Assembly: GCF_004117855.1 (NCBI RefSeq)
Contig: NZ_QWBW01000006.1
Coordinates: 248,001 to 312,000 of the forward strand
DNA from: Modicisalibacter coralii
Lineage (GTDB): Bacteria > Pseudomonadota > Gammaproteobacteria > Pseudomonadales > Halomonadaceae
Reading direction: 5' to 3'
DNA: 64,000 nt
The notes under the pieces were generated by a model that saw nothing but the letters and a program-made list of their open reading frames with translations, ran no database searches and was not told the DNA's origin. Shown in pieces: positions 14,105-29,702 of the stretch. How positions within the stretch are numbered: position 1 is the stretch's first letter; each line of letters opens with the position of its first letter. Position numbers and translations under genes: made by a program.

Positions 14105-14146
14105 ATCGTAGCGCTACGATATTGGCTGTGTTCGTAGCGCTACGAA
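14105..14146. promoter_or_regulatory. Two LacI-family operators upstream of the porin
   Basis: ATCGTAGCGCTACGAT (14105-14120) and TTCGTAGCGCTACGAA (14131-14146) are perfect 16-bp palindromes with centres 26 bp apart. A TATAAT at 14077-14082 lies just upstream. The CG at the centre of the core TAGCGCTA is typical of LacI/GalR-family sites. The same core occurs twice at 26460-26658. Confidence 0.85.
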
Positions 14147-14198
14147 ACAAGCTCGAAACACGACAAGACAACAATACTCGCCACACTGGAACACCCTC

Positions 14199-15677
14199 AT
14201 GACCAGAATCTTTTACCTCGCTCCTCTAGCCGCTACCCTCGCTTCGATCGCCATCAGCCCCTATGCCTTGGCCAATGATGATGATCTCGAAGCACGACTG
14301 GCAGCACTAGAGGCACGCGTGGCAGACGCTGAACAGCGCGCCCAAGCCGCGGAAGACCGTCTCAACGAACAGGACGCTGCCGAAAACTACGACGCAAGAA
14401 TCGCAGCTCTCGAGAAACAATCCAGTCGCGACGACGGCTTCACCTTCAGCGCTTATGCGCGCTCTGGTCTGCTGCTGGGGAAGGACGGCAAAAGCCTGCC
14501 CGGCGGCCCCTATGTGACCCCCGCCGGCACCGTGGGAGGCGCCGTGGGCCGCCTGGGCAACGAGCCGGATACCTACGTGCATGCCCGCTTTAACCATCTC
14601 AAGACTTACGAGAACGGCACCAAGCAGCGCTTCCAGTTCGCCCTCGCAGACTCGGTGACCACCAGCAACGACTGGACCGCCAATGAATCCAATCTCAATG
14701 TCCGGCAGGTATTCGTTGAACTCTCCGCGCTGCCCAGCTTCAAGGGCACGGCATTCGAAAACGCCACACTGTGGGCCGGCAAGCGCCTCGATCGCGACAA
14801 ATTCGATATACACTGGATCGACAGCGATGTGGTCAAGCTGGCGGGCCTGGGCGGCGGTATCTATGATGTCCAGCTAGCTGACGACTGGCGGAGCAGTTTC
14901 ACGCTCTATGGCCGCAGCTTCGATGATTTCAGCGTCAACCCCGAAAACACGGAGATCAGTGCCGATACCGATAGCCTGGTGCTAACCACCAACAACTACA
15001 TCGGAAATTGGGAGTTCATGTTCAGCGCGCTCTCCGCCAATGATAACGATAAGCGTATCGTCGATGGCCCTGGCACTGCCGCAGACAGCGGCGTTCACGG
15101 CATGCTGGCCTACCGTGGTGACAGCTTCTTCGGCCTCGGCAAGGGCACCTTCATGGCCGCCTTGCTGCACGGTGAAGGACTGGGTGCAGAGGTCAAGCAA
15201 ATCGGCGCCAACGGCGAGCTGCTAGATGACGCGCAGGCCACGCGACTGGCGGTTTACGGCACCACTTATCTAGCGCCCCACTGGCGCATCGCCCCCTCGC
15301 TGCTGACCGAGGTCAGCCAGGATCGCTTCGTTCGCGGTGACGACTACCGCTGGGCCTCGTTCAACACTCGCATCGCCAACGAGATCAGCGAGAACTTCGA
15401 AATGCAGTATGAAGCCAGTTACCAGACCATGGATCTCGATCCGCAAGGCTACAAGGGACGCCGCGCCGTTGACGGTGACTTTACCAAATTCACCATCGCC
15501 CCGACCTTCAAGCCTGCGGTGGGCGGCTTCTGGCAGCGCCCCGAGTTGCGAGTCTTCGCTTCCTACACGGATTGGGATGACGAGTTGAATGAATTCGCGA
15601 CCGATGATGCCTTCGGCCAGGAGGGTTATACCGGCGGTCAATGGAGCTTCGGCGTCCAAGCAGAAACCTGGTTCTGA
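14199..15677 (+). CDS. LamB-like sugar porin, probable sulfoquinovose(-glycoside) outer-membrane channel
   Basis: A 492-residue outer-membrane beta-barrel. It has a signal peptide ending near YALA-NDDD, then a coiled-coil segment (about residues 28-70) rich in Ala, Glu and Arg, as in some maltoporin relatives. Many alternating amphipathic strands follow, and the terminal residues FGVQAETWF carry the barrel-assembly Phe. I infer the cargo from context: two operators of the sulfoquinovose LacI regulon lie directly upstream. Sulfoquinovose operons in other bacteria also carry a porin. A terminator follows at 15732. Confidence 0.75.
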
Positions 15678-15731
15678 ATATCAGCATGAGGGTGGGGCAC
15701 AGGCGCCCCACTCGCTGACATGTCGATCTTT

Positions 15732-15764
15732 GCCCCATGGCTCCTGAAGCCTTGGGGCTTTTTT
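15732..15764 (+). terminator. Intrinsic terminator of the porin gene
   Basis: GCCCCA (15732-15737) pairs with TGGGGC (15753-15758), extended inward by partial pairing of GGCT and AGCC, and is followed by six T residues. Confidence 0.8.
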
Positions 15765-27305: not shown

Positions 27306-27308
27306 ACC

Positions 27309-28598
27309 ATGACATTCGCCTATCTCTGGATCTTTGCAGGACTGCTGATCGCCGGCATGCCGATCGTCTTTCTAATGCTGATCGCCCCGGGCATCAGTCT
27401 GGTACTGGAGGGCAGGGTCGTGTTTCTCGACCTGCTGTTTCAACGGCTGTTCGCAGGCATCGATAGCTTCCCGTTGATGGCGCTTCCCTTCTTCATCCTG
27501 GCCGGCGAACTGATGACGGCGGGCGGGGTCACCTCGCGCATCGTGCGCTTCGCCGAGACTCTGATCGGGCATCGTCGCGCCGGCCTCGGCCAGGTGTCGG
27601 TGACCTCTTCGCTGATGCTGGCGGGCGGCTCAGGATCGGCGGTGGCGGATGCCTCGGCACTGGGCTCGGTAATGATCCCGGCCATGAAGTCGTCGGGCTA
27701 CACCAACCGCTTCTCGGCGGCAGTAACAGCGGCCTCGGCGGTGATTGCTAGCATAATTCCGCCAAGCGGCATCTTTATTCTCTATGCCTTCATCATGAAT
27801 GTGTCGGTCGCGGGCATGTTCGCCGGCGGCATCTTGCCCGGGATCCTGATTGGAGTGGGCCTGATGATCACCATCTCCGTGATGACCCGCTTCAAGGAAT
27901 TCCCCGAGCCGTTGCCCAAGGCTAGCTGGAGCGAGAAATGGCAAGCTTTCATCGCCGCCTTTATGCCACTTCTGACGCCGGTGATTCTCATTGGCGGTAT
28001 TGTAGGCGGTATCTTCACTCCCACGGAAGGTGCCGCAATAGCAGCCTTCTATGCCTTGATTCTCGGCCTGTTCGTTACACGCGACCTCAAGTTAAGTGAT
28101 CTACCGAAACTTTTCGGCAAGGCAGCACTCAGCTCGGCCGTGGTGTTACTATTGGTCGGTGCAGCAGTCGCCTTCGCCTCACTTGTCAGCCTCAAGGGCA
28201 CACCTCAACTGGTGAGCGGTTTCATCCTAGGTATCACCGACGACCCCGCTCTGCTGTTCTTCTTGGTCGTTCTCTTCCTGCTAGGCGTCGGTACCATCAT
28301 GGATGCTGGCCCCGCCATCTTGATCCTAGGTCCTATCCTGGCCCCGGTCATGACCGGGGTCGGCGTTGACCCCATTCATTTCGCAGTCGTCATGAGCGTG
28401 ACACTAATCATGGGCCTTATCACACCTCCAATGGGCCTGGTACTGTTCGTTGTCGGCAGCATAAGTAACGAAAAAATTGAAAGGATTGCCTGGGAGATGA
28501 TGCCTCTTTTTCTAGTTGAAGTCGGCATTCTTTTCACCCTGGTTTATGTGCCGGACCTGGTGCTCGCCATCCCCCGATCTCTCGGTTACGTCACATAA
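27309..28598 (+). CDS. TRAP transporter large permease subunit (DctM type)
   Basis: A 429-residue protein with about 12 membrane segments that forms the sodium- or proton-driven channel. DctM-type segments are SFPLMALPFFILAGELMTAG, AGGSGSAVADASALGSVMIP, IIPPSGIFILYAF and GGIFTPTEGAAIAAFYAL. It sits between the small subunit and the binding protein, 33 bases before the latter. Uptake of an organic anion is expected; the context suggests sulfoquinovose or its glycerol glycoside. Confidence 0.9.
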   Translation: MTFAYLWIFAGLLIAGMPIVFLMLIAPGISLVLEGRVVFLDLLFQRLFAGIDSFPLMALPFFILAGELMTAGGVTSRIVRFAETLIGHRRAGLGQVSVTSSLMLAGGSGSAVADASALGSVMIPAMKSSGYTNRFSAAVTAASAVIASIIPPSGIFILYAFIMNVSVAGMFAGGILPGILIGVGLMITISVMTRFKEFPEPLPKASWSEKWQAFIAAFMPLLTPVILIGGIVGGIFTPTEGAAIAAFYALILGLFVTRDLKLSDLPKLFGKAALSSAVVLLLVGAAVAFASLVSLKGTPQLVSGFILGITDDPALLFFLVVLFLLGVGTIMDAGPAILILGPILAPVMTGVGVDPIHFAVVMSVTLIMGLITPPMGLVLFVVGSISNEKIERIAWEMMPLFLVEVGILFTLVYVPDLVLAIPRSLGYVT

Positions 28599-28631
28599 GC
28601 ATCCCCCCCAACCGCATGAGAGGACACAATA

Positions 28632-29702
28632 ATGAAAATACCAAGCAACAAGATGAAGAAAATCGCCAGCGCCGTTCTGTTGGGCTCTACCCTGAGTACC
28701 GCCTCCATGGCTCACGCCGTGGACCTCAACGTGGTCTTGCTGGCCAATGAGCAGGATGAAGAGTACGACGCCGCCCAGGTCTTCGAGAACTACGTGGAAA
28801 GTCATACCGGCGGCGAAGTCAATGTCAACATCTTCGTTGGCCCCCAACTGTGCGGCTCGGCGAATGAATGCTTCGAAGCCATGCAAGCCGGTATCGTCGA
28901 CCTATTCACCGCAACCGCAGGCGGTGTCGCCGGTATTTATCCACCGATCCAAGGCATGGACATCCCCTACACTTTCCCCGACGACCGCACAGCCATGGGC
29001 ATGTTGTCGGACCCGGAGTTCACTGACTATCTACGTGGCGAAATTCTCGATGCAACGGGCCAAGGTATTCGTCTGATGACCATGACTCAGACCGGCGGCT
29101 GGCGGAACTTTGCCAACGTCGATCATGAAATACATTCACCAGCAGATATCAAGGGGCTTCGCATCCGCACCATAGAGTCCGAAATCCAACAACGTCTTGT
29201 TCGGGATATGGGTGGCTCACCAACGCCAATCCCTTGGCTTGATGTATACACGGCACTACAGACCGGTGTTGTCGATGGCACCAAGAACTCCATTTCGGAC
29301 ATCATAAACATGAACTTTCAGGAAGTTCTCAAGTACATCACCCTCGACGGCCATGCCTATATGGCCTCGATGTGGCTGATGGGCAATCAGAAATTCAAGT
29401 CGTTGACCCCAGAACAGCAGCGCATCGTAGTGGATGGGTCTGCGCTTATGAGCGTCGTCCAGTTCGGCATGCAGCCACGCAAGGAGCTCGAAGCCTATGC
29501 GGCATGGAAGAAGTCGGGTGGCAAACTGTACGTGCCCAACGACGAAGAGATGGAGCAGTTCCGCAGCTACGCCGAGCCAATTCGCAAGTGGTACATCGAC
29601 ACTTACGGTGAACAGGGGCAGCAGTTCCTTAACGAACTCAATGCCGCCCGTGACCGGGCCAAAGAACGTGTCGCCGAGGAGCGTGAGTCTGCTCTTCAAT
29701 AA
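28632..29702 (+). CDS. TRAP transporter substrate-binding protein (DctP type)
   Basis: A 356-residue periplasmic binding protein with a signal peptide ending in SMAHA-VDL. The DctP-type anion-binding arginine is expected in IKGLRIRTIESEIQQRLV, followed by GGSPTPIPWLDVYTALQTGV, a typical specificity region with VDGTKNSISD. TRAP binding proteins usually grip a carboxylate with this Arg; here a sulfonate would take its place, which is inference. A further point: two cysteines in QLCGSANECFEAMQ could form a disulfide in the periplasm. Confidence 0.88.
   Translation: MKIPSNKMKKIASAVLLGSTLSTASMAHAVDLNVVLLANEQDEEYDAAQVFENYVESHTGGEVNVNIFVGPQLCGSANECFEAMQAGIVDLFTATAGGVAGIYPPIQGMDIPYTFPDDRTAMGMLSDPEFTDYLRGEILDATGQGIRLMTMTQTGGWRNFANVDHEIHSPADIKGLRIRTIESEIQQRLVRDMGGSPTPIPWLDVYTALQTGVVDGTKNSISDIINMNFQEVLKYITLDGHAYMASMWLMGNQKFKSLTPEQQRIVVDGSALMSVVQFGMQPRKELEAYAAWKKSGGKLYVPNDEEMEQFRSYAEPIRKWYIDTYGEQGQQFLNELNAARDRAKERVAEERESALQ

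Follow-up and report, generated by a model that had tools for sequence, protein, structure and literature searches.

A putative sulfo-Entner-Doudoroff island with its own TRAP importer and LacI-type operators in the halophile Modicisalibacter coralii

Genes and operators of the island

The DNA analysed here, referred to as the window, is a stretch of 64,000 nucleotides from Modicisalibacter coralii (positions 248001-312000 of contig C6 in a draft genome of 4.44 Mb, 99.99% complete). Between glpD and an EEP-family gene/fumC it carries an island of about 16.3 kb (13524..29860) that encodes a porin, a LacI-family regulator, eight catabolic and export proteins, and a tripartite ATP-independent periplasmic (TRAP) transporter. 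Judged from its genes, the island is very probably a complete sulfo-Entner-Doudoroff (sulfo-ED) system, from uptake to three-carbon products, for sulfoquinovose (SQ) and alpha-SQ glycosides such as SQ-glycerol. SQ is the sulfur-bearing sugar of photosynthetic membranes.

A first-pass annotation of the window had read eight co-directed genes, from 26413 to 16994 on the minus strand, as this pathway. All of the genes that it named are open reading frames at those places and in those families, as judged by Pfam for every island protein (NCBIfam, with its cut-offs, was used for naming). The eight genes are separated by gaps of at most 73 bp, with two short overlaps, when ATG starts are taken for the TSUP, lactonase, and mutarotase genes; the starts of the latter two had to be corrected to 22989 and 23873. 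Eight other family genomes share this arrangement, mutarotase aside, which places it beyond chance.

In order of transcription, the operon encodes a putative sulfogluconate (SG) dehydratase of the IlvD/Edd type (P0010, 24683..26413; PF00920 and PF24877), a candidate aldolase of the HpcH/HpaI type for 2-keto-3,6-dideoxy-6-sulfogluconate (KDSG; P0009, 23876..24673; PF03328), an aldose-1-epimerase-like probable SQ mutarotase (P0008 from ATG, 22986..23873; PF01263), and an SMP-30-family protein, the likely sulfogluconolactone lactonase (P0007 from ATG, 22108..22989; PF08450; nearest PDB entry 7plb). Lactonase, PF00920 dehydratase, and PF03328 aldolase are therefore all present in one cluster. These are followed by a GabD-like dehydrogenase (P0006, 20626..22092; PF00171), to which sulfolactaldehyde (SLA) is assigned as substrate by context, a short-chain dehydrogenase/reductase (SDR; P0005, 19844..20614) that is the predicted SQ dehydrogenase (SQDH), a GH31 glycosidase (P0004, 17746..19770) predicted to be a sulfoquinovosidase, and a TauE/SafE-like TSUP protein (P0003, 16994..17746; PF01925; ATG at 17746, TTG at 17749 also possible), probably an exporter of sulfolactate. 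The set had been described as lacking the phosphorylation genes of the sulfo-Embden-Meyerhof-Parnas pathway, and no families of a sulfofructose kinase or a sulfofructose phosphate aldolase occur among the island genes, to which this search was confined.

Divergent from the catabolic operon, on the plus strand, lie the TRAP genes for the small permease DctQ (P0011, 26748..27305; PF04290, 7.9e-25; no NCBIfam match), the large permease DctM (P0012, 27309..28598; PF06808; TIGR00786 over cut-off), and the solute-binding protein DctP (P0013, 28632..29702; PF03480, 9.2e-56; TRAP_S1 over cut-off). All three components of a TRAP system thus occur together by Pfam, and P and M by NCBIfam as well. At the opposite end of the island, also on the plus strand, are genes for a LamB-family outer-membrane porin (P0001, 14199..15677; PF02264, 4e-85) and a GntR/IdnR-like LacI-family repressor (P0002, 15893..16948; PF00356 and PF13377), for which the best NCBIfam model is GntR at 332.6 bits, under the cut-off of 400.

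In the proposed pathway, the LamB porin would admit the anionic sugar and the TRAP system would import it; GH31 would free SQ, and the mutarotase would equilibrate its anomers. The SDR would oxidise SQ to the lactone, the SMP-30 enzyme would open the lactone, the IlvD/Edd enzyme would dehydrate sulfogluconate, and the HpcH aldolase would split KDSG into pyruvate and (S)-SLA. The GabD-like enzyme would then convert (S)-SLA to (S)-sulfolactate, which TSUP would export. Through the four identical operators, LacI would keep both divergent operons and the porin gene repressed as long as no inducer (SQ or an early pathway intermediate) is present.

The operators are copies of the 14-bp LacI-type palindrome TCGTAGCGCTACGA. 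Their corrected positions are 14106..14119 and 14132..14145 (upstream of the porin gene), 26460..26473, and 26643..26656. Within the window the palindrome has four sites at up to two mismatches, all of them exact, a number reached by none of 100 shuffles of the window. Genome-wide there are four exact sites, all in the island, none at one mismatch, and 13 at two; the latter carry no weight, because the control, the reversed pattern, matched 57 times at up to two mismatches. This agrees with the single LacI regulon that had been suggested. The divergent region contains two TTGACA-type promoter matches (0.3 expected), which are sigma70-like by consensus match only: one for the catabolic operon (26475..26504, minus strand; TTGACA, 18 nt, AATATT) and one for the TRAP operon (26611..26640, plus strand; TTGACA, 18 nt, TAGCAT). 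The third operator adjoins the minus-strand -10 and the fourth the plus-strand -10, and an operator next to the -10 is the classic position for repression. No operator precedes the LacI gene itself in the window.

The palindrome, with no more than one position unpaired, or a near variant judged by eye, stands in the same two intergenic regions in the 10 Halomonadaceae loci compared, and in the single region compared in Natronospirillum. Among 15 other loci (at most one mismatch), Pseudomonas sp. BP8 has five copies, Acidocella three, the non-sulfo-ED locus L050 two, four loci one each, and eight none. The operator could serve as a handle for locating further sulfo-ED regulons.

What points to SQ as the substrate? 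The nearest solved relative of the SDR is the SQDH of Pseudomonas putida (PpSQDH, PDB 9gwu; 339 bits and 62% identity), and the next chain scores 252 bits. In PpSQDH, SQ is contacted by D99, R101, Q198, and R152, the last of these binding the sulfonate, and through water by R154, while N119, S147, Y160, and K164 form the catalytic set (PMC12133307). All nine residues are kept in the window SDR. Of the 51 aligned SDRs, 50 have R152, the residue of the salt bridge to the sulfonate; the exception is L051, which is 57% identical and comes from a family genome that lacks a sulfo-ED cluster. The other cluster-less SDR examined (L050) keeps R152, with Asn in place of R154. Variation at R154 occurs in 8 of the 51 rows, true sulfo-ED members included, and R101 is His in one (L101), so both are less telling markers than R152. 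The alignment and its tree cover the loci with an SDR match at 1e-40 over 200 residues, minus L089 and L090, which duplicate L042 and L049. In the tree, PpSQDH and the SQDH of Pseudomonas sp. BP8 (L120) fall in one group, and the BP8 locus holds the same catabolic gene set.

The GH31 protein, named PRK10426 over the NCBIfam cut-off, is nearest to chains 5ohy and 5ohs (893 and 891 bits; labelled yihQ), presumably the Agrobacterium enzyme; Escherichia coli YihQ (5aed) scores 711 bits and the following group 141. Five residues singled out by the first-pass annotation, D398, D465, R293, W296, and Y501, do stand at those positions, do not vary between the window protein and eight aligned relatives, and align with E. 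coli YihQ and 5ohy; at D465, chain 5ohs has N and 5ohy D. We take D398 and D465 to be the catalytic residues of YihQ, and R293, W296, and Y501 its sulfonate residues. At K254 and E280 the window protein agrees with chain 5ohy, whereas E. coli YihQ has Q at both positions; KERWY is presumably the motif of sulfo-ED sulfoquinovosidases. The relatives of SDR and GH31, the nine SDR residues, and the PF00920 dehydratase all support reading the island as a sulfo-ED system for SQ.

How widely is the island distributed? A search of 250 family genomes gave an SDR match at E <= 1e-50 in 145, with a gap in identity between nine genomes (the present one included) at 76-100% and the next at 58%. The gene order in the other eight is LamB, LacI / TSUP, GH31, SDR, GabD, SMP-30, (mutarotase), HpcH, IlvD / TRAP Q, M, P. 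Family SDR matches below 60% identity were followed at L050 and L051, the two best below the gap, and the cluster was found at neither. A separate GH31 survey scanned named genomes with the nine-row alignment; the best 80 loci of a longer list were kept and, with five from plasmids, make up the 85 loci examined. SQDH (at least 50% identity) and SG dehydratase (at least 60%) occur together in 35 of these, four from Halomonas and Natronospirillum (Halomonas beimenensis NTU-111, a Halomonas metagenome-assembled genome (MAG), H. smyrnensis AAD6, and Natronospirillum operosum, as named by the scan) and 31 others.

The fate of sulfolactate

Where does the pathway end? Contig C63 of the same genome (locus L041) encodes its one SuyB-type protein (16266..17441, minus strand), next to a SuyA-type protein (17438..17713, minus strand). 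The contig also encodes a ComC-type protein (1442..2425, minus strand), which is the only Ldh_2 protein of the genome, an SlcC-type 2-hydroxyacid dehydrogenase (2443..3372, minus strand), HpsN-, HpsO-, and HpsP-type proteins, a TRAP importer, and a tripartite tricarboxylate (TTT) importer. At its end lies a fragment of a YeiH-type exporter (19140..19661), 33% identical over 177 residues to the product of the gene after SuyAB in Paracoccus versutus. SuyB is 80% identical to a protein encoded on a Cupriavidus pinatubonensis plasmid, where its gene comes after hpsN, hpsO, and a short SuyA-type gene of the UxaA family. The SlcC-, ComC-, and SuyAB-type names are given by family and neighbourhood; the Cupriavidus and Paracoccus records call SuyA and SuyB only UxaA-family.

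SlcC and ComC have been proposed to racemise (S)-sulfolactate before SuyAB frees sulfite, with HpsO, HpsP, and HpsN feeding 2,3-dihydroxypropane-1-sulfonate (DHPS) into the same step (PMC9594981). The C63 proteins could likewise act on sulfolactate, by racemisation and then cleavage into pyruvate and sulfite. An end in mineralisation, with little sulfolactate exported, is compatible with the sulfo-ED reading of the island, and its chances fall just short of even. It is favoured by the C63 gene set with its exporter fragment, by the near relative of SuyB beside hpsN and hpsO in C. pinatubonensis, and by H. beimenensis, which has SuyA-SuyB-TctC-TctA-SlcC-ComC in one run as well as the island. 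By contrast, C63 stands apart from the island, has regulators of its own, and contains the island operator neither exactly nor at one mismatch; a copy at two mismatches is found about 1.9 kb past ComC, as one of 13 such sites in the genome. C63 can also be read as a scavenging system for DHPS and sulfolactate, and the TSUP exporter is retained in the island. Moreover, SuyB is found in 29 of the 250 family genomes, the island in nine, and both in two, where 1.04 would be expected; the co-occurrence is not beyond chance, and for this reason the island and C63 are not shown to work together.

A 46-residue stretch with 67% identity to SuyB is encoded in C63 (L041 6740-6877), with the TTT importer genes on one side and the hps genes on the other. 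When C63 is set against the suy-tct-slc-com run of H. beimenensis (L189), this stretch suggests insertion of the DHPS module after suyB. An Xsc route for the sulfonate gave no match above the family cut-off and was set aside. SuyB-type proteins were not found at 1e-100 in H. smyrnensis and N. operosum, genomes of unstated completeness, which also speaks against a coupling of the two loci.

Four MAG contigs from uncultured gammaproteobacterial or proteobacterial bacteria (L133:3-12001, L140:3-11950, L136:1-12007, and L154:2-11956) join sulfo-ED and sulfolactate cleavage in a one-cluster tandem. SuyA and SuyB lie divergent beside genes for SG dehydratase, aldolase, mutarotase, lactonase, SQDH, and GH31. 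In L133 and L140, ComC-, SlcC-, and GabD-type genes stand behind SuyAB, while the fetched stretches of L136 and L154 end inside SuyB; in L140 and L136, a reading frame for a GntR-type regulator was seen by eye after SQDH. The four loci fall in one SQDH group with L137 (support 93/89) and hence are not independent. TSUP was not found on these four contigs. It occurs in 22 of the 31 other sulfo-ED loci and is retained in those family islands (7 of the 9) whose genomes gave no SuyB, a pattern that leaves a role as sulfite exporter for the island a low-ranking candidate. Apart from these, Salinarimonas ramus (L129) has sulfo-ED genes and a SuyB homologue (69%) elsewhere in the same genome.

It is tentatively proposed that the present strain mineralises SQ alone, a wider claim that is a little less probable than the mineralising end taken by itself. 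The TRAP-fed, LacI-controlled island would yield (S)-sulfolactate, and the separate SlcC/ComC/SuyAB locus would turn this into a second pyruvate and sulfite, so that both three-carbon halves are used; in the four MAG contigs the same tandem would be fused into one cluster. For SQ, uptake by a TRAP system would then be a new type of transport. A described parallel is Paracoccus wurundjeri, in which an ED-type route and SlcC/ComC/SuyAB share one genome (PMC12421959). It differs in its substrate (sulfofucose), in the family of its dehydratase, and in having one cluster in place of two separate loci; the coexistence of both stages in one bacterium was called unusual in the same paper. In Thermotogae and Chloroflexi, sulfoglycolysis and sulfolactate cleavage are also united in one organism, with a transaldolase (sulfo-TAL) core pathway and a single gene cluster (PMC9594981).

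Because the genome also encodes SlcC-, ComC-, and SuyAB-type proteins, excretion of sulfolactate as the only outcome is not a safe prediction, and a read-out of sulfolactate in the medium may fail. H. smyrnensis AAD6, with the island and no SuyB found, is predicted to excrete sulfolactate from SQ; H. beimenensis NTU-111 and the present strain, with island and SuyAB, may not.

Import and relation to known systems

Orthologous TRAP genes (at least 50% identity) are present in all four Halomonas and Natronospirillum loci of the survey and in none of the 31 other sulfo-ED loci, two of which have a remote TRAP system nearby. The others instead have ATP-binding cassette (ABC) importers (14/31) or a sodium:solute symporter (SSS) type (5/31), one locus having both. 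Among the loci examined, orthologous TRAP importers were thus found only in Halomonadaceae and Natronospirillum, and they look new. The SQDH proteins of TRAP-bearing loci form one supported group of 11 rows (96/94). LamB (at least 35% identity) is present in three of the four loci and none of the 31; the stretch from Natronospirillum yielded none. Searches of the open-access literature, outside which most subscription papers lie, turned up neither the use of SQ by Halomonas nor its import by a TRAP system.

Could a different organic acid be the cargo of the TRAP system and porin, which would then only adjoin the pathway? The ligand of a TRAP binding protein cannot be read from sequence, and the solved relatives of this one are remote. 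The isethionate-binding DctP (PDB 8t9t; 92.5 bits to the island DctP) belongs to the same family; here the ligand would be a sulfosugar. However, the same operator stands before the TRAP genes, the porin gene, and the catabolic operon, the island contains no other importer, and TRAP is kept in the nine family islands and Natronospirillum, all of which makes a separate role unlikely.

TRAP genes also lie near YihQ-type GH31 genes in two stretches in which sulfo-ED genes were not found: P and M genes (39% and 46%) in Pasteurella testudinis (L114) and a P gene (36%) in Vibrio sp. ES.051 (L165). Given these neighbours, TRAP import may also serve other SQ pathways.

The sulfo-ED pathway was described in P. 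putida SQ1 (Felux 2015, via PMC9594981 and PMC12890257). The island resembles that system in the core steps, the mutarotase, and the SQDH, and differs by its TRAP importer and LamB porin. In Pseudomonas sp. BP8, an SSS-type symporter adjoins GH31. Rhizobium sp. WSM4643, Shinella sp. HZN7, and Microvirga ossetica share with the island a run of SG dehydratase, aldolase, lactonase, SQDH, GH31, and TSUP genes, joined by GabD in the first two; the rhizobial clusters differ in having an ABC sugar importer. R. leguminosarum SRDI565 is reported in the literature as another rhizobium with such a cluster.

According to a review, sulfo-ED is found mainly in soil-dwelling Proteobacteria, which leave sulfolactate for other bacteria (PMC12890257). 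A 2026 study reported a modified sulfo-ED pathway in a saltwater gammaproteobacterium, the marine Vibrio splendidus JLJ25, which has homologues of SQDH, lactonase, dehydratase, and aldolase and does not grow on SQ after an SQDH knockout (PMC13372026). That pathway ends in DHPS through an SLA reductase, in contrast to the candidate SLA dehydrogenase of the island; the searched text of the paper yielded no mention of TRAP or a porin. The first-pass annotation took the presence of the pathway in a halophile with a TRAP importer, a porin, and a single LacI regulon to be possibly new. Against this, the set itself occurs in nine of the 250 family genomes, including the present one, in H. smyrnensis, and in Natronospirillum, and sulfo-ED has been shown in a marine Vibrio. 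By its genes, the island is a variant of a known pathway, not a categorically new one, with its own importer and porin, a tight local regulon, and clear borders. The importer type and the presence of sulfonate-cleaving genes elsewhere in the same genome are unusual. A compact and tightly regulated halophile version with a different importer would offer a clean test case in culturable strains.

The substrate and the borders of the island

Several observations weigh against a sulfo-ED system for SQ. The chains 8r56 (833 bits) and 6pnr (794 bits), whose labels do not name a sulfoquinovosidase, outrank E. coli YihQ as relatives of GH31. Two arginines (Arg171/Arg289) proposed to bind the sulfonate in the SLA dehydrogenase of R. 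leguminosarum (PMC10599462) have equivalents in the GabD-like protein in an alignment by eye, but E. coli succinate-semialdehyde dehydrogenase has both too; the assignment of GabD consequently rests on gene context, as the sequence does not settle between SLA and succinate semialdehyde. The nearest solved relative of DctP (4p47) is remote at 124 bits, and the ligand of the island DctP is proposed from context. No promoter passed the scan upstream of LamB, and mutarotase was not found in three of the nine family islands (G117, G201, and G203). The chance-level co-occurrence with SuyB described above belongs here too.

The family names add to this. Over the NCBIfam cut-offs, the dehydratase is named L-arabinonate dehydratase, GH31 alpha-glucosidase, and GabD succinate-semialdehyde dehydrogenase, all broad family names; the best name for the SDR, D-xylose 1-dehydrogenase, falls below cut-off. 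Such names, and the GntR/IdnR-like repressor, would suit the degradation of a non-sulfonated sugar or sugar acid, for example from an arabinoside or glucoside, by a non-phosphorylative ED pathway. This is highly improbable in view of the conserved sulfonate-binding Arg of SQDH, the YihQ set of Arg, Trp, and Tyr in GH31, TSUP within the operon, and the grouping of PpSQDH with the SQDH of the BP8 locus. Least probable of all is sulfofucose (6-sulfo-galactose) as the substrate: the sulfofucolytic ED pathway has the same reaction order and the same families for three of the four core steps, but its dehydratase is PF13378/PF02746 and its clusters had ABC importers, and the sulfoquinovosidases of E. 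coli and Agrobacterium, to whose group the island GH31 belongs, are stated to be inactive on an alpha-sulfofucoside (PMC12421959). The island set is distinct from that pathway because of its PF00920 dehydratase and its sulfoquinovosidase-type GH31.

With SQ retained as the substrate, what can be said of the island as a unit? GlpD, EEP, and FumC genes are adjacent in 6 of 13 other genomes of the genus; in the remaining seven, a GlpD homologue is on a different contig (three) or was not found at the threshold used (four). In blastn comparisons with the two empty sites tested, homology ends at 13447, within the 3' end of glpD, and restarts at 29860-29865. The GC content is 61.6% in the island and 66.9% and 67.2% in the flanks. 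In two genomes of another genus (G216 and G243) the island likewise adjoins glpD, with fumC or the EEP gene at the far side, while GlpD was not found in the fetched stretches around six islands of a third genus. From the empty sites, the homology edges, the GC shift, and these varied settings, the island behaves as a single block that can be transferred or lost.

Adjacency to glpD (GlpD 12015-13523, preceded by a GlpR-like regulator at 11005-11850) might be taken as a sign of SQ-glycerol use. This was rejected, since glpD is the insertion site and not independent evidence. A Burkholderia GlpK query had no match in the first 16 kb of the window. GlpK lies near 7 and GlpD near 5 of the 31 other sulfo-ED clusters. 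On a Burkholderia multivorans plasmid typed as conjugative (L085, 12773-32724), a whole sulfo-ED set encloses glpK and a gene for glycerol-3-phosphate dehydrogenase and comes with an ABC importer as well as an SSS symporter.

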